A stretch of 64,000 nt of DNA from Actinomyces haliotis (GTDB taxonomy: Bacteria > Actinomycetota > Actinomycetes > Actinomycetales > Actinomycetaceae): positions 1 through 64,000 of the forward strand of contig NZ_JACWNA010000008.1 in assembly GCF_015355765.1 (NCBI RefSeq), written 5' to 3'. This document shows positions 1 to 12,452 of the stretch, in pieces; position 1 is the first letter of the stretch, and each line of letters starts with the position of its first letter. The notes under the pieces are model-generated. The model saw only the letters and a list, made by a program, of their open reading frames with translations, did no database searches and was not told where the DNA came from. The position numbers were made by a program, and so were the translations under genes.

Positions 1-1427
1 GGCTCTTCACGAACGAGGGTGTAGCGCGGGTCTGAACCCTCCGGCTTCGAGCAGCGACCTGGCGATGTAGTGGGTGAGGTTGCGGAAGCCGAGGGCGGAG
101 CCGCGGAGGTGTTCGAGGCGTCCGTTGATGGCCTCGGTCGGGCCGTTGCTGGTGCCGGGGCGGTCGAAGAACGCGAGGATGTCGGCGGCGCGTTGCTTCA
201 TGGTGCGGCCGAGCTTGCGGACCTCGACGAGCGCCGCGGGAACGCCGCTGCTGATCGCAGCGATCACCTCTTGCATCATCGCCTTCGCTTTCTTCTTGTC
301 GGGCTCCCGGTAGGCCGCGACGATGCGCTGGTAGATGCCCCAGGTCGCCTCGGCCTCGACGTGTTCCTCGCTCGCGAACACTGCGTCCAGGCGTGCCCGC
401 TGCCGGTCGGTGAGCAGGCTCGCCCCGGTGTGCAGGGTGCGGCGGGCTTTGTAGAGCGGGTCGCCCTTGAGCCCGCGGTGACCGGTGGTGTCTTGCTGGA
501 CCCGACGCCGGCAGACATCCAGCGCGTCGCCGGCGAGGCGGACCACGTGGAACGGGTCCATGACGGGGACGGCGTCGGGGAGTTCCTCGGCGGCAGCGGT
601 CTTGAACCCGGCGAAGCCGTCCATCGCGACCACCTCGATCCGCTTCGCGCCACTGCTTCGGGCGGCCCGCGAGCCACTGCTTGAACACCGCCTTGGAGCG
701 GCCCTCGACCATGTCCAGCAGCCTCGCCGGCCCGGTCTTGTTCCTCGCGGGCGTGAGGTCGATGATCACGGTGACGTACTTGTCGCCGAATCGGGTGTGT
801 CGCCAGACGTGCTCGTCGACACCGATCGTGGTGACCCCCTCGAACCGGGCGGGGTCGTCGATGAGGCGCCGCTTGCCTTCCGTGAGGACGGCGGCGTTCG
901 CGGCACTCCAGGACACCCCGAGACCTGCGGCGACGTGGGTGACGGTGAGGTGGTCGATGACGATGCCCCGCAGCGCCCACTCCAGGCCGCCGCGGGAGAT
1001 CTTCGCACGCGGCGCCGCTGCCCGCGTCATGTCCTGCCGCCACGTGCGCCGGCAGTGTCCGCACCGGTACCGGCGCACCCGCACCAGCAGGGTCGTCGGC
1101 CGGTGCCCGAACGGCTCGTGCGCCAGCGGGCGCGTCACCGTGTCCCGTGGCACGCCCTCGACACCGCACTTCCGACACCACGGGTCGTCCTCGACGACGC
1201 GGCATTCGATCGTGGCCCGATCCGGCTCGATCAGCTGGCCGACGGCGACGAGGCCGAGCTCGTCGAGGCGGCAGAACGTGGTCAGGTCAGGGGTCGCGAA
1301 AGTAGGGTGGAGCACGTCGAGGTCTTTCGGGATGGCGAGCGTGAAGAACTTCCATCATCCGGGAGACCTCGACCCCTACCCGGCCACCGACGCGCTCAAC
1401 CGACTACACCCTCGTTCGTGAAGAGCC
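1..1427 (-). mobile_element. ISL3-family insertion sequence, copy A
   Basis: A complete element whose ends are imperfect inverted repeats of about 24 bp beginning GGCTCTTCACGAACGAGGG; the left end is the first base of the window. It is 1427 bp, the same length as the copy at 4118-5544, and appears identical to it base for base where I compared them. Its transposase carries one frameshift. With the second copy in the same orientation it brackets a heavy-metal resistance module, so it looks like one arm of a composite transposon. The left target duplication lies outside the window. The right end also provides the last codons and stop of the P-type ATPase gene. Confidence 0.92.
7..1315 (-). pseudogene. 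ISL3 transposase, frameshifted (copy A)
   Basis: The transposase reads from a GTG at 1315 with the ISL3 zinc-finger cysteines, then the VDEHVWR catalytic segment. Near 639-642 the frame is broken and the rest (VVAMDGFAGF, then GPTEAINGRLEHLRGSALGF) continues in another frame from about 633 to the stop near 7. Compared with the intact relative at 11139-12446, which reads W-R-D-A-V-E-V-V-A-M-D across this point, there appears to be one extra base. Together the two frames make a protein of normal length, about 435 residues. I see no slippery heptamer, so I treat it as broken rather than programmed. Confidence 0.85.
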
Positions 1428-3398
1428 ACCTTGGCGGGTACCGAAATCGACCTGGGCGCGCCTAGTTTCGCCACGGCCCGGGCGGAGCATGCGCAGGCCG
1501 TTGAGGATGATCAGCGCCGCGCTGCCCTCGTTGAGGAGCAGGCCGGTGGTCAGGGACATCCAGCCGGCGAGGGCTGCGACGATCAGGATGGCGACGACGG
1601 TCAGGCTCAGGGCGATGTTGATCTTGATGTTGTTCCGAGCGCGGCGCGATAGTCGGATGGCGGCCGGGAGCCGGTCGAGCTCGTCGGCCATGAGGGCGAC
1701 ATCGGCGGTCTCTAGGGCGACGTCGGTGCTGGCGGCACCCATGGCGATGGCGAGGTCGGCGTTGGCCAGGGCGGGGGCGTCGTTGACGCCGTCGCCGACC
1801 ATCGCGATCACGCCGTGTTTCTCGCGCAGCTCACGGATTGCGGCGGATTTGTCCTCGGGGAGCAACTCGGCGCGGTAGTCGTCTAGCCCCAGGGCCTGCG
1901 CGGTGGACCTGGCGACGGTGGCGTTGTCGCCGGTGAGCATCAGGACCCGCTCGACTCCGAGGTCGCGCAGCTCGGCGAGGGTGCTTTCGGCGTCGGGGCG
2001 CAGCTGGTCGGCCACCGCCACGACGGCCAAGGGTCGGGTGTCGTCGCGAAGAACCACGGCCGTGCATCCTTCCGCCTCGGCGTGCGCCAGCGCCGGGCCT
2101 GCGGTGCCGTCAGTCCGGTCCTCGTCGGTGGGCCGGCCGATGTGCAGGGTGCGACCGTCGAGGGTGGCTTCCATGCCGGCTCCTGGCAGGGCGCGTGCAT
2201 CCTGGACGGCCGGGATGGTCAACCCGCGGTCACGGGCACCGGCCACGATCGCGGTCGCGATGGGGTGCTCGCTCTCGGACTCGACCGCCGCCGCAAGGGT
2301 CAGAGCCTCGTCCTCGCTGATCCCGTCGAGGGGCGTTACTTGAGCGAGATCGGGCCGGCCGCGGGTGAGGGTGCCGGTCTTGTCGAAGGCGACGGCCTTG
2401 ATGTCGGCCAGGCGCTCAAGGTAGATGCCGCCCTTGATGAGGATGCCGTCGCGGGCGCCCCGGGCGATAGCGGTGACCACGCTGACAGGCACCGAGATGA
2501 TCAGGGCGCAGGCGCAGGAGACAACCAGGACCACGAGGGCCCGGTAGATCGCCTCGCGCCACTCGAAGCCGAGCAGCGGCAGCACTAGTGCCACGGCTAC
2601 GGCAAGGGCGAACATCGCCGGGGTGTAGACAGCACCGAACTTGTCCGCGAACCGCTCGGCACCGCTGCGGTTGGCCTGGGCCTCCTCGACCTGCTCGATC
2701 ACCCGGGCCAGGACCGTGTCGTAGTACTCCTTGGTGACCTCGATCCGCAGCACGCCATTGCCGTTGAGGCTGCCGCCGAAGACCTCGGTGCCCGCCGTGA
2801 CCTCGACCGGCACCGACTCCCCGGTCACCGGGCTGGCGTCCACCCACGAGGCGCCATGGATCACAGCGCCGTCGGTGGGTAGGCGCTCACCGGGACGCAC
2901 CAGGACGACGTCACCGGGGTGGAGTTCCTCCACCGCCACGGTCTTGGTCGCCCCGTCATCGTTGAGTCGGTTGGCGGTGGGGGGTGCGAGCTCCATCAGG
3001 GCGCTAATAGACCCGCGGGCCTTGTCGGTGGCGTAGGCCTCCATCGCCTCACCGAGGCTGAAGATGACGACGAGCATCGCCGCCTCCTCGATCACCCCAA
3101 GCGCGATGGCTCCGATGGCGGCCACGACCAGCAGCACGGTGATGGTCAGCCGTTTGTGGCGCACCGCCCGGATCGCGCTGCGCAATGGGTAGACGCCGCC
3201 GATGAGGATCGCGCCCCAGAATAGGGCCAGGGCCACCGGCTCGGAGTGGATGGTCCACTCCACCACCAGCCCGGCCACCAGCAGCACCGCGGCGACGGCC
3301 AGCGTGACCATCTCGGGCTTCTGCCACCAGCGGCGGGCGCGAGGCCGAACCGCGACAGCGGACGTGACGTGTGGTGACGTGCTCGCATTAGCACTCAT
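1404..3398 (-). CDS. Heavy-metal translocating P1B-type ATPase (Cd/Zn/Co-like)
   Basis: A 664-residue metal-efflux pump. Visible motifs are the TGES actuator loop (about 192-195), the phosphorylation site DKTGT (339-343), SEHP in the nucleotide-binding domain and GDGVNDAP in the hinge. The membrane metal motif, normally Cys-Pro-Cys, reads Cys-Ala-Cys (295-297), and the last helix has NEGSAALIILNGLRML. There is no N-terminal HMA domain; one is encoded separately just upstream at 3428-3673, 29 bp away, probably in the same transcript. The final residues GSSRTRV and the stop come from the end of the ISL3 element at 1-1427, so the native C-terminus was clipped, though only after the last helix. 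Substrate is inferred from the family and the ArsR-type regulator next door. Confidence 0.9.
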   Translation of the reverse strand: MSANASTSPHVTSAVAVRPRARRWWQKPEMVTLAVAAVLLVAGLVVEWTIHSEPVALALFWGAILIGGVYPLRSAIRAVRHKRLTITVLLVVAAIGAIALGVIEEAAMLVVIFSLGEAMEAYATDKARGSISALMELAPPTANRLNDDGATKTVAVEELHPGDVVLVRPGERLPTDGAVIHGASWVDASPVTGESVPVEVTAGTEVFGGSLNGNGVLRIEVTKEYYDTVLARVIEQVEEAQANRSGAERFADKFGAVYTPAMFALAVAVALVLPLLGFEWREAIYRALVVLVVSCACALIISVPVSVVTAIARGARDGILIKGGIYLERLADIKAVAFDKTGTLTRGRPDLAQVTPLDGISEDEALTLAAAVESESEHPIATAIVAGARDRGLTIPAVQDARALPGAGMEATLDGRTLHIGRPTDEDRTDGTAGPALAHAEAEGCTAVVLRDDTRPLAVVAVADQLRPDAESTLAELRDLGVERVLMLTGDNATVARSTAQALGLDDYRAELLPEDKSAAIRELREKHGVIAMVGDGVNDAPALANADLAIAMGAASTDVALETADVALMADELDRLPAAIRLSRRARNNIKINIALSLTVVAILIVAALAGWMSLTTGLLLNEGSAALIILNGLRMLRPGRGETRRAQVDFGTRQGGSSRTRV

Positions 3399-3673: not shown

Positions 3674-3755
3674 GGTTGATCTCCTTCTAGCTCGTGGAAC
3701 ATCGGACTTCGATGGACGTCAAAGTCTACGTTCCCGAGTTTGCCGTAGAGTTCGA

Positions 3756-3771
3756 TACATGTCAATATGTA
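3756..3771. promoter_or_regulatory. Candidate operator of the metal regulator
   Basis: A perfect inverted repeat, TACAT-GTCAAT-ATGTA, ends 3 bp before the regulator's ATG at 3775 and lies in the divergent control region of the metal operon. The stretch is AT-rich within GC-rich surroundings. Binding by the ArsR-type protein is inference from position. Confidence 0.5.
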
Positions 3772-3774
3772 CCC

Positions 3775-4152
3775 ATGTCGATGTCTGGTCTGTCCGCCCG
3801 TGACGCCGCGTTGGGATACTGCACGCCCCTCGCCCGCGAGCCGATCACCCCGGCGCAGGCCGAAGGTGTCTCCCGCACGCTTAAGGCTCTGGCCGATCCG
3901 GTGCGGCTGCGATTGATGTCGATGATCCTGTCCCACGAGGGCGCCGAGGCGTGCGCCATGTGTGACCTGACAGAGGGCTTCGACCTGTCGCAGTCGACCC
4001 TCAGCCACCACCTGAAGGTTCTGCACGACGCCGGCTTGGTCGACCGCGACAAGCGCGGCGTGTGGGTCTACTACAAGGCCCGCACGGAGGCGATGGACGC
4101 CCTGCGCACCCTATTCAGGCTCTTCACGAACGAGGGTGTAGCGCGGGTCTGA
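3775..4152 (+). CDS. ArsR/SmtB-family metal-sensing repressor, 3' end replaced by IS
   Basis: A winged-helix repressor of about 125 residues as now read. It has the ArsR core (TLKALADPVRLRLM), a cysteine pair in A-C-A-M-C-D-L at the start of the recognition region, and the DNA-reading helix SQSTLSHHLKVLHDAGLV. ArsR proteins release DNA when metal binds such cysteines. It is divergent from the HMA-ATPase operon, the usual layout for autoregulated metal efflux. I chose the ATG at 3775 because the family core starts soon after; an upstream in-frame ATG at 3694 would run through the promoter region. The ISL3 copy at 4118 cuts the gene near its natural end and adds LFTNEGVARV, so the sensor may still work. 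Confidence 0.8.
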   Translation: MSMSGLSARDAALGYCTPLAREPITPAQAEGVSRTLKALADPVRLRLMSMILSHEGAEACAMCDLTEGFDLSQSTLSHHLKVLHDAGLVDRDKRGVWVYYKARTEAMDALRTLFRLFTNEGVARV

Positions 4153-5544
4153 ACCCTCCGGCTTCGAGCAGCGACCTGGCGATGTAGTGGGTGAGGTTGC
4201 GGAAGCCGAGGGCGGAGCCGCGGAGGTGTTCGAGGCGTCCGTTGATGGCCTCGGTCGGGCCGTTGCTGGTGCCGGGGCGGTCGAAGAACGCGAGGATGTC
4301 GGCGGCGCGTTGCTTCATGGTGCGGCCGAGCTTGCGGACCTCGACGAGCGCCGCGGGAACGCCGCTGCTGATCGCAGCGATCACCTCTTGCATCATCGCC
4401 TTCGCTTTCTTCTTGTCGGGCTCCCGGTAGGCCGCGACGATGCGCTGGTAGATGCCCCAGGTCGCCTCGGCCTCGACGTGTTCCTCGCTCGCGAACACTG
4501 CGTCCAGGCGTGCCCGCTGCCGGTCGGTGAGCAGGCTCGCCCCGGTGTGCAGGGTGCGGCGGGCTTTGTAGAGCGGGTCGCCCTTGAGCCCGCGGTGACC
4601 GGTGGTGTCTTGCTGGACCCGACGCCGGCAGACATCCAGCGCGTCGCCGGCGAGGCGGACCACGTGGAACGGGTCCATGACGGGGACGGCGTCGGGGAGT
4701 TCCTCGGCGGCAGCGGTCTTGAACCCGGCGAAGCCGTCCATCGCGACCACCTCGATCCGCTTCGCGCCACTGCTTCGGGCGGCCCGCGAGCCACTGCTTG
4801 AACACCGCCTTGGAGCGGCCCTCGACCATGTCCAGCAGCCTCGCCGGCCCGGTCTTGTTCCTCGCGGGCGTGAGGTCGATGATCACGGTGACGTACTTGT
4901 CGCCGAATCGGGTGTGTCGCCAGACGTGCTCGTCGACACCGATCGTGGTGACCCCCTCGAACCGGGCGGGGTCGTCGATGAGGCGCCGCTTGCCTTCCGT
5001 GAGGACGGCGGCGTTCGCGGCACTCCAGGACACCCCGAGACCTGCGGCGACGTGGGTGACGGTGAGGTGGTCGATGACGATGCCCCGCAGCGCCCACTCC
5101 AGGCCGCCGCGGGAGATCTTCGCACGCGGCGCCGCTGCCCGCGTCATGTCCTGCCGCCACGTGCGCCGGCAGTGTCCGCACCGGTACCGGCGCACCCGCA
5201 CCAGCAGGGTCGTCGGCCGGTGCCCGAACGGCTCGTGCGCCAGCGGGCGCGTCACCGTGTCCCGTGGCACGCCCTCGACACCGCACTTCCGACACCACGG
5301 GTCGTCCTCGACGACGCGGCATTCGATCGTGGCCCGATCCGGCTCGATCAGCTGGCCGACGGCGACGAGGCCGAGCTCGTCGAGGCGGCAGAACGTGGTC
5401 AGGTCAGGGGTCGCGAAAGTAGGGTGGAGCACGTCGAGGTCTTTCGGGATGGCGAGCGTGAAGAACTTCCATCATCCGGGAGACCTCGACCCCTACCCGG
5501 CCACCGACGCGCTCAACCGACTACACCCTCGTTCGTGAAGAGCC
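4118..5544 (-). mobile_element. ISL3-family insertion sequence, copy B
   Basis: Second copy, 1427 bp, with the same terminal inverted repeats and the same transposase frameshift as the element at 1-1427, in the same orientation. The eight bases on the left (CCTATTCA) and right (GGCGAACC) do not match, so it lacks its own target duplication. That fits one arm of a composite transposon or a rearranged insertion. On its left it truncates the metal regulator; on its right it abuts the tail of another ISL3-type transposase gene. Confidence 0.92.
4124..5432 (-). pseudogene. ISL3 transposase, frameshifted (copy B)
   Basis: Same organisation as copy A: zinc-finger and first catalytic segment from a GTG at 5432, an apparently extra base near 4756-4759, then the rest in another frame to about 4124. 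The change is the same in both copies, so it was present before they duplicated. Movement would need an intact related transposase in trans; the element at 11018-12452 encodes a related but clearly diverged one. Confidence 0.85.
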
Positions 5545-5545
5545 G

Positions 5546-5685
5546 GCGAACCTGACCGCCAAGACGATCAAGAGGGTCGGGCGCGGGTACCGCAACCATC
5601 GGAACTACAGATGCCGCATCATTGGCTATGCGCCCCGACCGATCGCGGCGTGAACACCCAGCACTACGCTCAAAGATGAAAAGCC
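5546..5685 (+). mobile_element. 3' remnant of a different ISL3-type element
   Basis: An open frame from 5546 to a TGA at 5651-5653 encodes 35 residues, including KTIKRVGRGYRNHRNYRC, typical of the C-terminus of another ISL3-type transposase subgroup. About 30 bp after the stop, the sequence ending ATGAAAAGCC at 5685 read inward begins GGCTTTTCAT, a plausible right inverted repeat. Copy B interrupts this element, leaving only its tail. This implies at least two rounds of insertion here. Confidence 0.65.
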
Positions 5686-5699
5686 AAATTGAGTCCAGT

Positions 5700-5709
5700 A
5701 CAATATTGT
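5700..5709. promoter_or_regulatory. AT-rich palindrome before the peroxidase cassette
   Basis: ACAATATTGT is a perfect 10-bp palindrome in the short space between the IS remnant and the catalase-like gene, about 26 bp before its ATG. It could be an operator or overlap a -10 element. No regulator gene is adjacent to assign it to. Confidence 0.3.
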
Positions 5710-5735
5710 TATCACGATGTCGAGGAGGCGTACCG

Positions 5736-6815
5736 ATGAACCCCATCCGCTACCACGATGACGTCGAGGTCCCCGTCGAGAACGAGGCCGAGATCTCCCA
5801 GCGAATCGTCGAACGAATGGCCGCCACCCAGGCGGAGAACGCCGCCCGTCACCGCCACGCCCACCGCGACGCGCACGCCAAGAGCCACGCGATCATCACC
5901 GGGCAACTCACCGTCCACAACGACCTGCCGCACGAGCTCGCGCAGGGCATCTTCGCCACCCCCGGCACCCACGAGGTCGTCGCCCGCCTCTCGTCGGCAC
6001 CCGGCGACATCCACTCCGACGAGATCCCTGCCCCGCGGGGTTTCGCGCTCAAGATCATCGGCGTGGAGGGCGCGCGCCTGTCCCCCGAGCTCGGTGGCGC
6101 CAACCAGGACTTCCTCATGGTGAACTTCCCGACGCTCGCGTTCGGCACCGTGACCAAGTACGAGGACATGCTCGACATCCTCGAGAAGAACGCGAGCAAC
6201 CCGGCCGCCGCGCAGAAGGCGGTCTCCGCCGCCGCCCGGGGCATCGCCTCGATCACCGAGAAACTCGGTCGCACCCCCGGCGCGACCGTCCAGGGCCTCG
6301 CGAACGACTACTCCCACATACTCGGTGAGACCTTCTACACCCAGGCCGCGATCCGTTACGGCGACCACATCGCCAAGATGTCCCTCGCGCCGACCGGGGA
6401 GGTCGCCGAGCTCACCGGCGTCGACGTCGGCGACGACTTCGACGCGATGCGTACCGCGGTCGTCCGCCACTTCATGACCAAGGGCGCGACGTACGAGCTG
6501 CGGGCGCAGCTGTGCACCGACCTGAAGACCATGCCCGTCGAGGACGCCGCCGTGCTCTGGGACGAGGACGAGTCCCCGTTCCGCGTGGTCGCGACGGTCC
6601 GTTTCGACCCGCAGGACGTCGGCGGACCCGCCCGTCGGGTCGCCGGTGACGACCACCTCGCGTTCAACCCGTGGAACGGAGTCGAGGCGCACCGGCCGCT
6701 CGGCTCGATCATGCGCGTCCGCAAGCTCGCCTACGAGTCGTCCTCGCGGCAGCGGCACGACCTCAACGCCGTGGCCCGCCGGGAGCCGGACTCCCTCGCC
6801 GACCTCACCGCCTGA
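5736..6815 (+). CDS. Catalase-family haem protein (catalase-like/SrpA-like)
   Basis: 359 residues, shorter than a classical catalase (about 480 or more). The N-terminal HAKSHAIITGQL (about 47-58) resembles the catalase distal-His segment, and RLSSAPG followed by PRGFALKI matches the catalase substrate-channel region. R-K-L-A-Y near 329-333 could give the proximal haem tyrosine in an R-x-x-x-Y pattern. Such proteins are usually haem peroxidases or peroxide-dependent oxidases rather than strong catalases. The ATG at 5736 has GAGGAGG ahead of it; an earlier in-frame ATG would run back into the IS remnant. It is the first gene of a three-gene operon with an unknown protein and a DyP peroxidase. 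Confidence 0.8.
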   Translation: MNPIRYHDDVEVPVENEAEISQRIVERMAATQAENAARHRHAHRDAHAKSHAIITGQLTVHNDLPHELAQGIFATPGTHEVVARLSSAPGDIHSDEIPAPRGFALKIIGVEGARLSPELGGANQDFLMVNFPTLAFGTVTKYEDMLDILEKNASNPAAAQKAVSAAARGIASITEKLGRTPGATVQGLANDYSHILGETFYTQAAIRYGDHIAKMSLAPTGEVAELTGVDVGDDFDAMRTAVVRHFMTKGATYELRAQLCTDLKTMPVEDAAVLWDEDESPFRVVATVRFDPQDVGGPARRVAGDDHLAFNPWNGVEAHRPLGSIMRVRKLAYESSSRQRHDLNAVARREPDSLADLTA

Positions 6816-6839
6816 CCCCTCACCCCCTTGGAGGACCCC

Positions 6840-7556
6840 ATGAACGAGAAGCTGACGTCCGAACAGACCCGCATCGACCCGCGCCTCTCGGAGGAGAGCC
6901 GCATGGAGGAGTTCCGCCGCGTGGTCAAGGAGGTCGCGGCCGACGCGCCGACGATCTCCCAGATCGCGATCAACTCCCTGCTCACCGACAAGAACCCGCT
7001 CCACGAGGGCACGTACGAGTCGGCCGGCCGGGCCGGTGCCCGCTCCGGCAACGTGTCCGAGCTGACCGCCATCGCCGACCTCAGGCCCGGCGGCGCCGAC
7101 CGGCTGCGCCGCATCTTCGGCCTCACCGGCGGCGACTTCGACGGCGCCAAGCGCGTCTCGACGCTGCACAACATGCGGTTCGTGTTCCTCGACGACGACA
7201 CGCGTGTGCTGTTCGCCACGGCCTACGACGGCGACTGGGACACCTACATCGACGACTTCGCGACGAAGATCCCCGAGCTCATGGACCTGTTGTTCGCCAA
7301 CGTCGAGGGCTGGCCGGGGATCGACTCCCCGAAGGTCAAGGACTTCATCGCCGACCACCAGATCGACGCCGCCGCGTGGTTCGTCGCGAACCCGCAGGTG
7401 ACGGTCGTGGACGTGCGCCGGTACCAGCGCATGGAGCAGGCCCTGGACACGTTCTTCGACGCGATGGCGGCGAACACCGCGATGGACGCGACGACCCGGG
7501 AGGCCCTGTCGGCGCTGTCGGACGCGGTGGCGACGCCGCAGGGGGTGGACTACTGA
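6840..7556 (+). CDS. Conserved protein of unknown function in the peroxidase cassette
   Basis: 238 residues, apparently soluble, with no signal peptide or membrane helix. I cannot name the family with confidence. The middle reads HNMRFVFLDDDTRVLFATAY, then DGDWDTYIDDFATKIPELMD, then EGWPG and D-F-I-A-D-H-Q: acidic and aromatic motifs that look conserved rather than random. The ATG at 6840 is preceded by GGAGG; a TTG at 6828 is also in frame. It follows the catalase-like gene by 24 bp, and its stop overlaps the DyP start by one base, so it is very probably co-translated with the peroxidase. A role in haem or peroxide chemistry is inferred from context only. Confidence 0.75.
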   Translation: MNEKLTSEQTRIDPRLSEESRMEEFRRVVKEVAADAPTISQIAINSLLTDKNPLHEGTYESAGRAGARSGNVSELTAIADLRPGGADRLRRIFGLTGGDFDGAKRVSTLHNMRFVFLDDDTRVLFATAYDGDWDTYIDDFATKIPELMDLLFANVEGWPGIDSPKVKDFIADHQIDAAAWFVANPQVTVVDVRRYQRMEQALDTFFDAMAANTAMDATTREALSALSDAVATPQGVDY

Positions 7557-8941
7557 TGCCGTTCGAGCACCTCAGGGAGCTGCGCAAGCGTTTCCGTCGG
7601 GAGAGCGTCACGCTGCAGCTCGACGACATCCAGTCGCTCATCCTGCGGTCGCGGCCCGAGCCCTACGTCGGGATCCACGCGGGGTTGCGGGTCGACACCC
7701 CCGAGGGGGGTCGTGCCCTGCTGGGGCGGCTCGTCGAGTACGTCCCCTCGGCGCAGGACTGGACCGCGGACATGCACGCGTGGACGGGGGTGGCGATCAG
7801 CCACGCCGGCCTCAAGGCGATGGGCCTGCCGGAGGAGTCCCTCGCGAGTTTCCCGCTGCCGTTCCGGCAGGGCATGGCGGCCCGCGCGGGCCAGCTCATG
7901 GACACGGGCGAGAACGCCCCGGAGACGTGGGAGGAGTTCTACAAGGACGACTCCCTGCACGTCGCGGTGACGATCTACGCCGACTCGGAGGAGTCCCTGG
8001 CGGACGCCGTGGAGAAGGCTCTGGGGTACCTGGAGGAGATCGACGGGGTCACCCTGCTCGGCACGCACGCGTTCGGGGCGCCGGATGCGGCCAACCCGTT
8101 CGGCTACCACGACTCGCTCAGCCAGCCGCTCGTCGCGGGCGCCGGCGTCGACGCCCTCCCGGGGCAGGAGCGGGCCATCGCGGCGGGCGAGTTCATCCTC
8201 GGGGAGGACAGCGAGACGGGTTCGCCCGTCGCCATGCCCTCGCCGGACGTGCTGGGTCGTAACGGCTCGTTCGTCGTGCTCCGCAAGTACGACAGCCGTG
8301 TCGGCGCCTGGAACGACTTCCTCCGCGAGCACGCGGAGGAGGACACGCAGGAGTCCCGCGACGCCCTCGGCGCGAAGCTCGTCGGCCGGTGGCGGTCGGG
8401 GGCGCCGCTCGTCCTCTCCCCCGAGAAGGACGACGTCGACCTCGGCATGGATCAGTCCCGCAACGACGACTTCGACTACTCCGACGACCGCCGCGGCCTC
8501 ATGTGCCCCCACTCGGCGCACGTGCGCCGCATGAACCCGCGCGGCAGCGAGCTGACGATCCTCACGGACGAGAACATCCACCGGATCATCCGCCGCTCCT
8601 CGACGTTCGGCCCCGAATGGGACCCCGACCTCACCGCCGCCGACGACAAGGACGCCGAGCGCGGCCTGTTCTTCATCTTCATCAGCGCCCGCGCCTACGA
8701 CACGGTCGAGTTCCTCCAGCAGGAGTGGATCAACCGCGGCAACTTCGTCGACCTCGGCACCGAACGCGACCCCGTCGTCGGACTCCACGAGGAACCGGGC
8801 CGGTTCACCATCCCCGACCGGCCCGTCCGCAAGCGCGTCGACGGCGTGACCACGTTCAACCGCCTCCGCGGCGGCGAATACATGTTCATGCCCTCCCTCA
8901 CCGCCCTGCGCTGGATCGCCGACGCGGGCTGGGAGAGCTGA
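7556..8941 (+). CDS. DyP-type (dye-decolourising) haem peroxidase, long form
   Basis: 461 residues, the long type of DyP peroxidase. The proximal haem histidine lies in CPHSAHVRRMNPRG (His about 322). The usual GXXDG signature reads G-Y-H-D-S-L-S-Q-P (183-191): the catalytic Asp186 is kept but the following Gly is Ser. No Tat or Sec signal is visible, so the protein is probably cytoplasmic or packaged. The ATG at 7556 shares one base with the preceding TGA. A long hairpin terminator follows at 8996-9032, closing the operon. Substrate is unknown; partnership with the catalase-like protein is inferred from gene order. Confidence 0.9.
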   Translation: MPFEHLRELRKRFRRESVTLQLDDIQSLILRSRPEPYVGIHAGLRVDTPEGGRALLGRLVEYVPSAQDWTADMHAWTGVAISHAGLKAMGLPEESLASFPLPFRQGMAARAGQLMDTGENAPETWEEFYKDDSLHVAVTIYADSEESLADAVEKALGYLEEIDGVTLLGTHAFGAPDAANPFGYHDSLSQPLVAGAGVDALPGQERAIAAGEFILGEDSETGSPVAMPSPDVLGRNGSFVVLRKYDSRVGAWNDFLREHAEEDTQESRDALGAKLVGRWRSGAPLVLSPEKDDVDLGMDQSRNDDFDYSDDRRGLMCPHSAHVRRMNPRGSELTILTDENIHRIIRRSSTFGPEWDPDLTAADDKDAERGLFFIFISARAYDTVEFLQQEWINRGNFVDLGTERDPVVGLHEEPGRFTIPDRPVRKRVDGVTTFNRLRGGEYMFMPSLTALRWIADAGWES

Positions 8942-8995
8942 CCAGGCCGGCGGATCGAGACCGGTGCTCGCCCGGTCGTCCGCACCGGCGATGAA

Positions 8996-9032
8996 CGAGA
9001 GGCCCCCTCCCAACCCGGGAGGGGGCCTCTCG
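8996..9032 (+). terminator. Strong hairpin terminator of the peroxidase operon
   Basis: A perfect 16-bp stem (8996-9011 with 9017-9032) and a 5-base loop, very GC-rich, 55 bp after the DyP stop. The downstream T run is weak, as is common in high-GC genomes. Confidence 0.85.
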
Positions 9033-9184
9033 ACTTGGAACGCCGTGGCTCTGGGGCCGTCCGCGCCCTCGGACCTCACGAGGGCGAGCACGCGCTCGAC
9101 GCGCTCAGCCGTGTCGATGGCCCCCCCTGCCCCCTTCCTCACCCCGCTTGACGTCATCGATGACGTCATCCGGGGGGGGCGGGG

Positions 9185-10345
9185 TCAGGTGGTCGCGAGT
9201 TCCAGGACCTGGGCGGCGACCTCGCGGGCGGCGGGGACGGCGGACTCGACGAAGGAGGTGCGGGTGCGGCGTTCGACGAGGTCCTCCACCGTGAGGGCGC
9301 CCTCCGCCAGCACGCCGAAGAGCATCTCCGCACCGGTGTAGGCGACCCCCTCGGCGACGGGGCCCGCGAACCGGGGGTACCGACGGCCCAACTCCGCGAC
9401 ACGACCGGCCTCGGTGCCGTAACGGCGCACGAGACGGGTCGGTTTCTCGAGACGGGCCAGCACCTCCCGCGGCGCCGCGCCCACGAGCGGGAGCGTCCTC
9501 GTCCGGCACTCCCGGTCCGTCCCGAGACGACGGCAGGCGGCGTCCACGGCGTCCTCGGCCATCGTGCGATAGGTCGTGAGCTTGCCCCCGGCGATCGTCA
9601 GGGGCCGGCCAGGTTCGTCGATGAGCAGGTGCCGTCGGGACACGTCGGCGGTCGCGCCCGCCTCGACGAGTGCGCGCTCCGCGCCCTCCGACAGATCCCC
9701 CGACGCGCCGTGCTCGCGCCTCTCCCCGAACCCGTGCCTCCCGATCCGCCTCTTCGTCCCTCCCGTCGACCCGCCCGACGGAGTCGGCAGCACTAACGGC
9801 CGCAGCCCGGCGAACCGGCCCACCACGTCCTGCCTGGTCAGGGGGCGCTCCAGCGCGCGGTTGATCGTGGCGAGGAGGAAGTCCTCGTCGGATTCCGGCA
9901 CCGGCGGAGCGATGCCGTCGACCCCGGGAGCGGCGTCGTCGGTGAGGCCGACGAGCACGAGGCCGTCGCTCTGTGGCAGAGCGAACACGAACCGGCCGAA
10001 GTGACCCGGCACCGGCGCGGTGAACACGGCGCTGGGACACCCGAGCGCCTCGGCCCGCACGACCAGGTGGGATCCGCGGCTCGGCGAGATCCGCAACGAC
10101 GGGTCGTGTTCACCGGCCCACACGCCGGTCGCCGAGACGACCGTGCCCCGAGCCTCGACGCTCTCGCCCGTCGTCTCGTCCGTGAGGGTGAGTCGGTCCT
10201 CACGCAGGTCGGTCGCGGCGCACCGGGTGAGGACGTCCGCGCCGTGCGCCGCTGCGGTGCGGGCCAGCGCGATCACGAGGCGGGCGTCGTCCTCGAGCTG
10301 ACCGTCGGTGTAGTAGACGGCACCGCGCAAGGGCCCTACCCCCGG
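9185..10345 (-). pseudogene. glpD: Glycerol-3-phosphate dehydrogenase (GlpD), 5' end lost
   Basis: The frame encodes the C-terminal two thirds of an FAD-dependent glycerol-3-phosphate dehydrogenase: LRGAVYYTDGQLEDDARLV, the VVSATGVWAG segment, GLTDDAAPGVDG, IAGGKLTTYRTMAEDAVDAA and the C-terminal cap domain. Homology starts abruptly at about 10340; upstream the frame runs into IS3-family sequence, so roughly the first 130 residues, including the FAD-binding GxGxxG, are missing. The residual frame stays open, so the loss looks recent. Confidence 0.85.
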
Positions 10346-11017
10346 ATCTTGGACACGGGGTGTGATTACGCAGCCGTCGGCAGCGTAGCGGTGTTGCCGG
10401 TCTCGTAGAGGACCGGCGGGACGTAGCGGCACCACGAATGGCGTCGCTTGGTGTTGTAGCGGACGAGCCACCTGAAGACCTGCCGGCGGCAGACCAGTTC
10501 GTTGCTCCAGCAGGCGGCGTCTTGGAGAACCTCGCGCTTCATGGTGGCGTTGAACGACTCGGCCAACGCGTTGTCCGCGCTGGACCCGACGGCGCCCATG
10601 GACTGGGTGACGCCGAGCTTGCGACAGAGCTTGGCGTAGTCCTTCGAGCAGTAAACCGACCCGTGGTCGCTGTGAAATACGCTGCCCTTGAGGGTGCCCC
10701 GGGTTGCGGCGGCGGCCTTCAACGCGTCCTCGACGAGCTCGGTACGCATGTGGTCAGCGATGGCCCACCCGACAAGCCGACGGGAGTAGCAGTCGATCAC
10801 GGTCGCCAGGTAGAGGTTCGTGCCGTCGGCGATCGGCAGATAGGTGATGTCGCCGACGTAGCGCAGCCCTGGCGCCGGGGCGGTGAAGTCGCGCTTGAGC
10901 AGGTCGGGGTACTTCTGGCCAGACGGTTCGGGGATCGTGGTCCGCACCCGCCGCTTCTTCACATAGCCCCGGATTCCTTGCAGCCGCATCACCCTGGCGA
11001 CGCGCTTGTGGTTTACC
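10346..11017 (-). mobile_element. IS3-family element remnant (OrfB integrase)
   Basis: Encodes most of an IS3-family OrfB transposase: PGLRYVGDITYLPIADG (first Asp), HSDHGSVYCS (second Asp), NALAESFNATMKREVL (Glu), ending NTATLPTAA at 10366. The catalytic core is complete, but its 5' part, orfA and the right end are missing because the ISL3 element starts at 11018 in the middle of the frame (EPVNHKRVARVMRL). The element sits in glpD, so an IS3 insertion was later cut by the ISL3 element. The left boundary is approximate (10341-10366). Confidence 0.85.
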
Positions 11018-12452
11018 GGCTCTTCCCAGACGGGGGTGTAGGCGGGGTGTGCGCAGGGCCGGCGCGTCGGTGCCGGGGTAGGGGTCGAGGTCTTCCGAGG
11101 ATGGAGGTTCTCACACCGAACATCTGGAAGACCTCGACGTGCCCGACGCTACCTTCGCTGCCCCTGACCTGACCACCTTCTGCCGGCTCGACGAGTTGGG
11201 ACTGGTTGCTGTTGGTCAACGACTCGAACCTGGACGGGCGGTGATCGCCTGCCGGGTTGTCGATCCGGACGACTGGTGCCACCGGTGCGGCCAGCACGGT
11301 CTGTTGCGTGACACGGTCGTGCGGCGGCTCGCTCACGAACCGCTCGGCTGGCGGCCGACCGTGCTGGAAGTGCTCGTCCGCCGGTACCGGTGCGCCGACT
11401 GCGCTCATGTGTGGCGCCAGGACACCGCGAAGGCAGCCGAGCCCAAGGCGCGGCTGTCGCGCCGCGGGCTGCGGTGGGCGTTGGAAGGGATCGTGGTCCA
11501 GCACCTCACCGTGGCCCGGATCGCCGAAGGCTTGGACGTCAGTTGGAACACGGCGAACGACGCGGTCCTCGCCGAGGGCAGGCGGGTGCTGATCAACGAC
11601 CCAGCACGGTTCGACGGGGTCACCACGATCGGCGTGGATGAGCACGTGTGGCGCCACACCCGCCGCGGCGACAAGTACGTGACCGTGATCATCGACCTGA
11701 CGCCAGCAAGGACGAACAGCGGACCGGTCAGGTTGCTCGACATGGTCGAGGGCCGCTCCAAGAGCGTGTTCAAGACCTGGCTGTCCGAACGCGACCAAGC
11801 CTGGCGAGACGCCGTGGAAGTGGTCGCGATGGACGGCTTCACCGGCTTCAAGACCGCCACCACCGAAGAACTGCCTGACGCGGTCGCGGTGATGGATCCC
11901 TTCCACGTCGTCCGCCTCGCCGGCGACGCCCTCGACAAGTGCCGCCGCCGGATCCAGCAAGACCTCCACGGACACCGCGGCCGTGCCGGCGACCCGCTCT
12001 ATTCCGCGCGCCGCACCCTGCACACCGGCACCAGCCTGCTCACCGACAAACAGAAGACCCGACTCGAGCAACTGTTCGCCGACGACCACCACGCTGCCGT
12101 CGAGGTCACCTGGGCCGCCTACCAGCAGATGATCACCGCCTACCGCGAACCCGACCCTGCCCGTGGCCGCGACCTGATGAACAAGCTGATCGCCAGCCTC
12201 GCCAGCGGCGTGCCGGCCGCGCTCGTCGAGCTCCGATCGCTCGGCCGAACCCTAAAAAAGCGGGCTGCTGACGTGCTGGCCTACTTCGACCGGCCCGGCA
12301 CCAGCAACGGCCCCACCGAAGCGATCAACGGCCGCCTCGAACACCTCCGCGGCAGCGCCCTCGGCTTCCGGAACCTCACCAACTACATCGCCCGCAGCCT
12401 GCTCGAGACCGGTGGATTCAGACCCCACCTACACCCTCGATTGTGAAGAGCC
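11018..12452 (+). mobile_element. ISL3-family insertion sequence, intact copy C
   Basis: 1435 bp bounded by imperfect inverted repeats of about 24 bp that start GGCTCTTC and end GGGTGTAG. It is clearly diverged from copies A and B. The flanking octamers (GGTTTACC left, TCCATGAG right) do not match, and the two flanks are unrelated genes (IS3/glpD and an S9 peptidase). That suggests a deletion or inversion next to the element after it arrived. Confidence 0.92.
11139..12446 (+). CDS. ISL3-family transposase
   Basis: 435 residues from a GTG at 11139. The N-terminal zinc finger reads C-H-R-C-G and R-C-A-D-C; catalytic regions are IGVDEHVWR, VVAMDGFTGF and GPTEAINGRLEHLRGSALGF. There is no frameshift, in contrast to the two other ISL3 copies in this window. 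The stop lies inside the right inverted repeat, which runs from 12429 to 12452. This is the only ISL3 copy here that looks able to make a full-length transposase. Confidence 0.93.
   Translation: MPDATFAAPDLTTFCRLDELGLVAVGQRLEPGRAVIACRVVDPDDWCHRCGQHGLLRDTVVRRLAHEPLGWRPTVLEVLVRRYRCADCAHVWRQDTAKAAEPKARLSRRGLRWALEGIVVQHLTVARIAEGLDVSWNTANDAVLAEGRRVLINDPARFDGVTTIGVDEHVWRHTRRGDKYVTVIIDLTPARTNSGPVRLLDMVEGRSKSVFKTWLSERDQAWRDAVEVVAMDGFTGFKTATTEELPDAVAVMDPFHVVRLAGDALDKCRRRIQQDLHGHRGRAGDPLYSARRTLHTGTSLLTDKQKTRLEQLFADDHHAAVEVTWAAYQQMITAYREPDPARGRDLMNKLIASLASGVPAALVELRSLGRTLKKRAADVLAYFDRPGTSNGPTEAINGRLEHLRGSALGFRNLTNYIARSLLETGGFRPHLHPRL

Follow-up and report, generated by a model that had tools for sequence, protein, structure and literature searches.

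Why are a catalase-like gene, a gene of no named family and a gene for a DyP-type peroxidase kept together in one compact cassette, and what might the three proteins do in concert? We address this question for a stretch of 64,000 nucleotides from Actinomyces haliotis (contig NZ_JACWNA010000008.1, positions 1 to 64,000), hereafter the window, in which the three genes follow each other in the order CAT, MID (the middle gene) and DyP. An initial annotation, made from the sequence alone, had considered this cassette a candidate undescribed oxidative system. We found that MID and DyP are, with near certainty, an evolutionarily linked pair, lying side by side on one strand and, in some lineages, joined in a fusion, and that the catalase-like gene is clearly a frequent, though not universal, third member.

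Conservation of the MID-DyP pair

A sequence search yielded 80 loci, with DyP beside MID in 80 of 80 and the catalase-like gene in 78. Because such a search favors close relatives, genomes were then sampled by taxon with profiles. MID was present in 7 of 396 genomes of the Actinomycetota, the phylum of the window, and adjoined DyP in all seven; one more distant MID copy in the window's own family was also accompanied by DyP. The class of Sphingomonas had MID in 7 of 240 genomes (8 loci; DyP in 7 of 7 testable, the eighth at a contig end), and the phylum of a Ktedonobacteraceae metagenome-assembled genome had it in 3 of 121 genomes (5 loci; DyP in 4 of 4 testable). Over the taxon samples together, DyP was beside or fused to MID in 19 of 19 testable loci, and in 15 of 15 when the genomes that had served as sample centres are excluded.

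In a wider set of 103 loci, DyP was always on the same strand as MID, and the gene orders were CAT-MID-DyP (61), MID-DyP-CAT (24), MID-DyP (11) and others (7). The start codons in the CAT-MID-DyP arrangement lay within about -1 to +4 bp; a tight stop/start overlap was rejected as a universal feature, as Streptomyces and distant copies show gaps. The three proteins also diverged in parallel, with correlations of 0.94 for MID and DyP, 0.92 for DyP and CAT, and 0.87 for MID and CAT, against a permutation maximum of 0.14. The initial annotation had described a three-gene unit and suggested asking how often MID keeps these neighbors. Its homologues accompany DyP at each testable locus and, in most cases, a catalase-like gene too; the MID-DyP core of the proposed unit is thus upheld, whereas the catalase-like gene is less constant (89 of 103). 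As the gene set recurs across phyla, the cassette is more than a chance grouping.

The association concerns one kind of DyP. Among the DyP matches in the actinobacterial sample, six had MID close by and two were cut at contig ends, and no MID was found at a Tat-type DyP (L121) or at a more distant DyP (L123), indicating that MID goes with one DyP subclass and not with all DyPs. Fusions occur in several forms. A 1202-aa open reading frame (ORF) in locus L158 (6926-10534) joins MID, DyP and about 450 residues matching no Pfam family, a Sulfitobacter plasmid (L084, 5691-10553) encodes a fusion of cytochrome P450, MID and DyP in which MID is preceded by a hydrophobic segment, and an alphaproteobacterium (L156, 710-3733) has a DyP-P450 ORF with MID upstream. 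Tandem MID domains also occur among the homologues. Additionally, two to three MID genes were observed near one DyP in loci L079, L069, L133, L134 and L161, and MID may accordingly act as a heteromer or dimer.

Features of the three proteins

The window DyP matched DrDyP of Deinococcus radiodurans (8re2) over residues 18-456 with an E value of 1e-154, compared with about 1e-35 for fungal DyPs, and was 52% identical to the DrDyP row in the alignment. Among 68 dereplicated relatives, on which the residue counts below are also based, the distal Asp186, proximal His322 and distal Arg346 were each kept in all 68. The fifth position of the GXXDG motif was occupied by Ser 43 times, by Gly 23 times and by Met and Ala once each, and the window DyP reads GXXDS; the Gly at this position is a consensus feature that does not define the DyP fold, and DrDyP itself, with Met there, still has that fold according to its structural description (PMC10820274). 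Judged by full-length similarity and haem residues, the protein can be assigned to the class V (C/D) DyPs.

Comparison of MID with the families of Pfam, NCBIfam, PHROGs and PADLOC and with PDB sequences gave no convincing match. The initial annotation had assigned this protein no role, and it indeed belongs to no named family in the libraries searched. Weak matches to Pectate_lyase22 and to oligogalacturonate lyase covered only about 30 residues and were dismissed as chance, a role in anti-phage defence was set aside for want of a PADLOC match, and the N-terminal extensions of the homologues in L117, L119 and L126 were not accepted as extra domains, these ORFs being listed from the first possible codon and the extensions being mostly low-complexity. 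The motifs DGDWDTYIDDF and EGWPG, which had been noted as conserved-looking, were confirmed, and relatives share most of their residues without variation. In addition, His110, Arg113, Asp130, Asp134, Tyr136 and Asp139 were kept in 68 of 68, with His110 replaced by Gln or Arg in 3 of 23 rows of a distant set.

The predicted model of MID was modest (predicted local distance difference test score, pLDDT, 67; predicted template modelling score, pTM, 0.48) and reads beta-alpha-beta-beta-alpha. Nearly all of its top structural matches were dimeric alpha+beta barrels, including monooxygenases and polyketide cyclases as weak matches, and the best (Z 7.9, residues 72-184) is under the tool's own informative level. 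MID is therefore probably a single ferredoxin-like alpha+beta barrel, which is a lead on its fold, short of proof. DyPs themselves are made of two ferredoxin-like alpha+beta barrel domains (PMC10820274).

CAT matched the Pfam Catalase family (PF00199) with an E value of 5e-5 and 22.9 bits, below the gathering score of 25. Its proximal Arg329-x-x-x-Tyr333 was kept in 68 of 68 relatives and its distal His47 in 65, and the distal Asn position was Thr in 20. The predicted model (pLDDT 84) had its best match in the allene oxide synthase of coral (1u5u, Z 24.5) and also resembled the mycobacterial protein MAP-2744c (3e4w, Z 23.5); the matches to 1u5u, 3dy5 and 3e4w span Z 24.5-23.1 versus 22.7 for the best catalase, a margin near the tie threshold, and differences near 1 give only a lean toward the allene-oxide-synthase type. 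From these comparisons, we infer that CAT would be a hydroperoxide-converting haem enzyme, similar to allene oxide synthases or minicatalases, rather than a catalase. Transmembrane segments were found in none of the three window proteins.

The cassette of Deinococcus radiodurans

The DyP of the D. radiodurans cassette (L082) is the protein of structures 8re2 and 8re3 (DrDyP, DR_A0145). MID directly precedes it, and the gene after it, annotated as catalase family, is taken to be DR_A0146 by position and annotation. DrDyP is reported as six-coordinate low-spin and inactive at pH 7.5, with almost no activity above pH 4, and the authors raise the possibility that it is controlled in vivo by other proteins (PMC10820274). 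DRA0146 was reported to be without catalase activity (PMC7247583, citing Jeong et al. 2016), and both proteins increase after ultraviolet C (UVC)/vacuum (PMC5731708). The available passages of PMC10820274 and of other Deinococcus papers make no mention of a gene partner or of MID for DrDyP.

Neighboring genes

Over 104 loci, the genes near the cassette included those for TetR regulators (45), 4HBT/acyl-ACP-type thioesterases (40), 3-hydroxyacyl-CoA dehydrogenases (24) and oleate hydratases (22). These loci are often near-copies, so arrangements and not raw counts were weighed as evidence. In Sphingomonas, genes for the catalase-like protein, MID, the peroxidase, a thioesterase and a patatin phospholipase lie on one strand. 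A 3-hydroxyacyl-CoA dehydrogenase gene is immediately upstream of the Deinococcus cassette and downstream of that on an Acinetobacter plasmid, and the Agrobacterium and Shinella cassettes have an oleate hydratase gene added. ABC/HlyD exporter genes are also recurrent. P450 genes are beside or fused in six distant MID-DyP loci (L084, L119, L154, L155, L156 and L159), and in L164 (5196-7244) an animal-haem-peroxidase gene (PF03098, E 6e-114) shares its strand with MID-MID, DyP and CAT.

Oleate hydratase is known as a defence of Staphylococcus aureus against antimicrobial unsaturated fatty acids (PMC7948970), and cyanobacterial fusions of a catalase-related domain with a lipoxygenase or a heme dioxygenase produce oxylipins (PMC11719350). 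In the open literature searched, no paper was found to connect DyP-type peroxidases to oleate hydratase, and none to connect DyP to catalase-related enzymes. Copies from Streptomyces, Bradyrhizobium, Sinorhizobium and Chloroflexota (L056, L060, L062, L069, L071, L133, L134 and L161) also repeatedly have a DUF4331 gene next to MID-DyP.

Layout and mobility of the window locus

The positions of the genes and flanking signals are given in Table 1. The layout proposed initially was recovered throughout, namely the gene positions, the 24-bp gap between CAT and MID and the 1-bp overlap TGATG, formed by the MID stop codon TGA (7554-7556) and the DyP start codon ATG (7556). The nearby insertion sequence (IS) boundary is also real, the second IS copy ending at about 5544. 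As for the strong terminator, a hairpin of high stability is present 3' of DyP and is likely the transcription end; it has no U-run and was therefore missed by the terminator scan, so that a terminator role is plausible only. The promoter match 5' of the cassette is weak.

Table 1. Features of the cassette and its surroundings in the window
Feature	Position	Strand	Details
Catalase-like haem protein (CAT)	5736-6815	+	359 aa; ORF open
MID, no named family	6840-7556	+	238 aa; ORF open
DyP-type peroxidase, class V, Deinococcus DrDyP type (putative)	7556-8941	+	461 aa; ORF open
Sigma-70-like promoter match, 5' of cassette	5676-5704	+	ATGAAA-17-TACAAT; 9/12 matches; 1 found vs 0.2 expected
Shine-Dalgarno-like GAGGAGG ahead of CAT	5722-5728		
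Shine-Dalgarno-like GGAGG ahead of MID	6830-6834		
Strong hairpin, 3' of DyP gene	8996-9032	+	-39.8 kcal/mol, z -6.8; no U-run
IS copies	1-1427, 4118-5544		100% identical
Metal-type P-ATPase gene	1404-3398		
Small winged-helix-type regulator	3694-4152		
Stretch with a glycerol-3-phosphate oxidase/dehydrogenase-like ORF (DAO, DAO_C) running into an integrase ORF	9185-11022		N-terminus of the DAO/DAO_C ORF seemingly cut short
IS3-type integrase ORF	10366-10992		
Intact transposase	11139-12446		

Copies of the block at 5540-11022 (5.48 kb), with nucleotide identities of 97.6-99.3%, were found in Janibacter, Arsenicicoccus, Rothia, Micrococcus and Nesterenkonia; those of the last two genera are partial. 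MID was not found in six sampled congeners of the window organism, and many of the alphaproteobacterial cassette copies are on plasmids. These results indicate that the cassette block is a case of recent lateral spread among actinobacteria. The block in Janibacter and Arsenicicoccus is bounded on both sides by a direct repeat of 146 bp (window 5540-5685; L001, 4701-4846 and 11672-11817), possibly a trace of the block's movement.

Several further observations concern the surroundings. The two identical IS copies flank the P-ATPase and regulator genes, and the transposase of both is apparently frameshifted and resembles the intact one listed above. The apparently truncated DAO/DAO_C ORF runs into the integrase ORF, and this stretch (9185-11022) moves together with the cassette in other genera. 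One record named Arthrobacter sp. TPD3018 (L010) has the same locus as Sphingomonas records and may be mislabelled or mixed.

Proposed function and alternative explanations

We give an even chance to the interpretation that the cassette is a lipid-oxidation module, in which a MID-DyP complex would act on unsaturated or peroxidised fatty acids and CAT would process hydroperoxides. MID would bind DyP, itself a two-barrel haem protein, with the tight gene coupling leading to roughly 1:1 synthesis, and it would gate or activate the DyP haem pocket or present the substrate. Such gating would explain why DrDyP studied by itself has a low-spin haem and shows no activity at neutral pH. The substrate would be unsaturated fatty acids or their hydroperoxides, not dyes or bulk H2O2, and CAT would convert the hydroperoxides, with a P450 taking its place in some MID-DyP lineages. 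For the host, the benefit might be that toxic free fatty acids and lipid peroxides are detoxified or put to use; this would agree both with the mobile spread and with the oleate hydratase, thioesterase, 3-hydroxyacyl-CoA dehydrogenase, patatin and ABC/HlyD exporter genes nearby. A more specific form of this proposal is tentative and carries less probability: MID-DyP would be a two-protein haem oxidase oxygenating or peroxidising unsaturated fatty acids, CAT or a P450 would convert the resulting hydroperoxide, the whole would be a DyP-based, horizontally spread bacterial oxylipin-type pathway, and MID would found a new family of haem-peroxidase partners.

Several points weigh against the lipid-oxidation interpretation. 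The model of MID has modest scores. The identity of DR_A0146 rests on position and annotation, and the replacement of the distal Asn by Thr in CAT relatives means that the chemistry may vary. No fatty-acid genes are near the window copy or several others (e.g., Ketogulonicigenium L130). Many of the positive alphaproteobacterial loci are near-copies, so that independent gains are few, at about four to five arrangements, and thioesterase and 3-hydroxyacyl-CoA dehydrogenase genes are common anyway.

A general H2O2 or oxidative-stress cassette, made up of a true catalase and a peroxidase with MID as an assembly or haem-loading factor, would agree with the catalase fold and conserved haem ligands of CAT and with the increase of both Deinococcus proteins after UVC/vacuum. 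We consider it rather unlikely, since DRA0146 is reported to be without catalase activity and DrDyP to be inactive at neutral pH, CAT is only 359 aa long and below the Pfam catalase cut-off, and the neighbors are fatty-acid genes rather than oxidative-stress genes. The initial proposal of an undescribed oxidative system stands as to a partner without a family that is kept with DyP. Given these reports on the two Deinococcus proteins, a probable metabolism of fatty acids or lipid hydroperoxides describes the system better than H2O2 scavenging does.

MID could also be an enzyme itself, namely a cofactor-poor oxygenase or isomerase of ABM-like type that takes the DyP product as its substrate and needs no physical complex, as its polar residue set kept in all 68 relatives and the monooxygenases and polyketide cyclases among its top fold matches might suggest. 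However, the structural resemblance is weak, some rows of the distant set lack His110, and the presence of DyP beside MID in every testable locus, distant lineages included, suits a partner better, so we hold this alternative to be similarly improbable. Still less probable is a tailoring cassette for an aromatic or polyketide secondary metabolite, with the fatty-acid genes incidental. In its favor are the resemblance of MID to polyketide cyclase folds and the P450, NIPSNAP, SRPBCC and ester cyclase genes that lie close to some copies, but no polyketide synthase or nonribosomal peptide synthetase genes were among the annotated neighborhoods, and lipid genes recur around a cassette that is itself compact and mobile across phyla.

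Relation to known systems and significance

DyPs and catalase-related proteins are of known kinds, and the conserved partner MID and the module are unnamed in the libraries and open papers searched. One close relation is to DrDyP (8RE2, 8RE3), which shares the subclass of the window DyP and has the same three genes around it, but differs in the order MID-DyP-CAT and in having Met where the window DyP has Ser. Coral cAOS (1u5u/3dy5) and MAP-2744c, a 33-kDa catalase-related protein, resemble CAT in their short catalase fold, distal His and RxxxY, yet share only about 16-19% identity with it, and no lipoxygenase gene was among the annotated cassette neighborhoods.

The oxylipin enzymes known as fungal dioxygenase-P450 and cyanobacterial catalase-heme dioxygenase fusions follow a like logic, in that an oxygenating haem enzyme is joined to a P450 or catalase-related domain, and the P450-MID-DyP and DyP-P450 fusions and the animal-haem-peroxidase neighbor are parallels to them. 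The oxidising enzyme of the cassette would be a DyP with MID, whereas that of the oxylipin fusions is a cyclooxygenase-like dioxygenase. Encapsulin DyP cargo likewise involves a DyP with a dedicated protein partner, but MID is no shell protein, and no encapsulin gene was among the annotated neighbors of 18 plasmid copies.

Which substrates DyP peroxidases use in nature is still an open question. MID is a candidate for the missing partner of DrDyP-type DyPs, and lipids are the substrate class to which the cassette points. Within the cassette, the third 'catalase' of Deinococcus, reported to be inactive, also finds a place.

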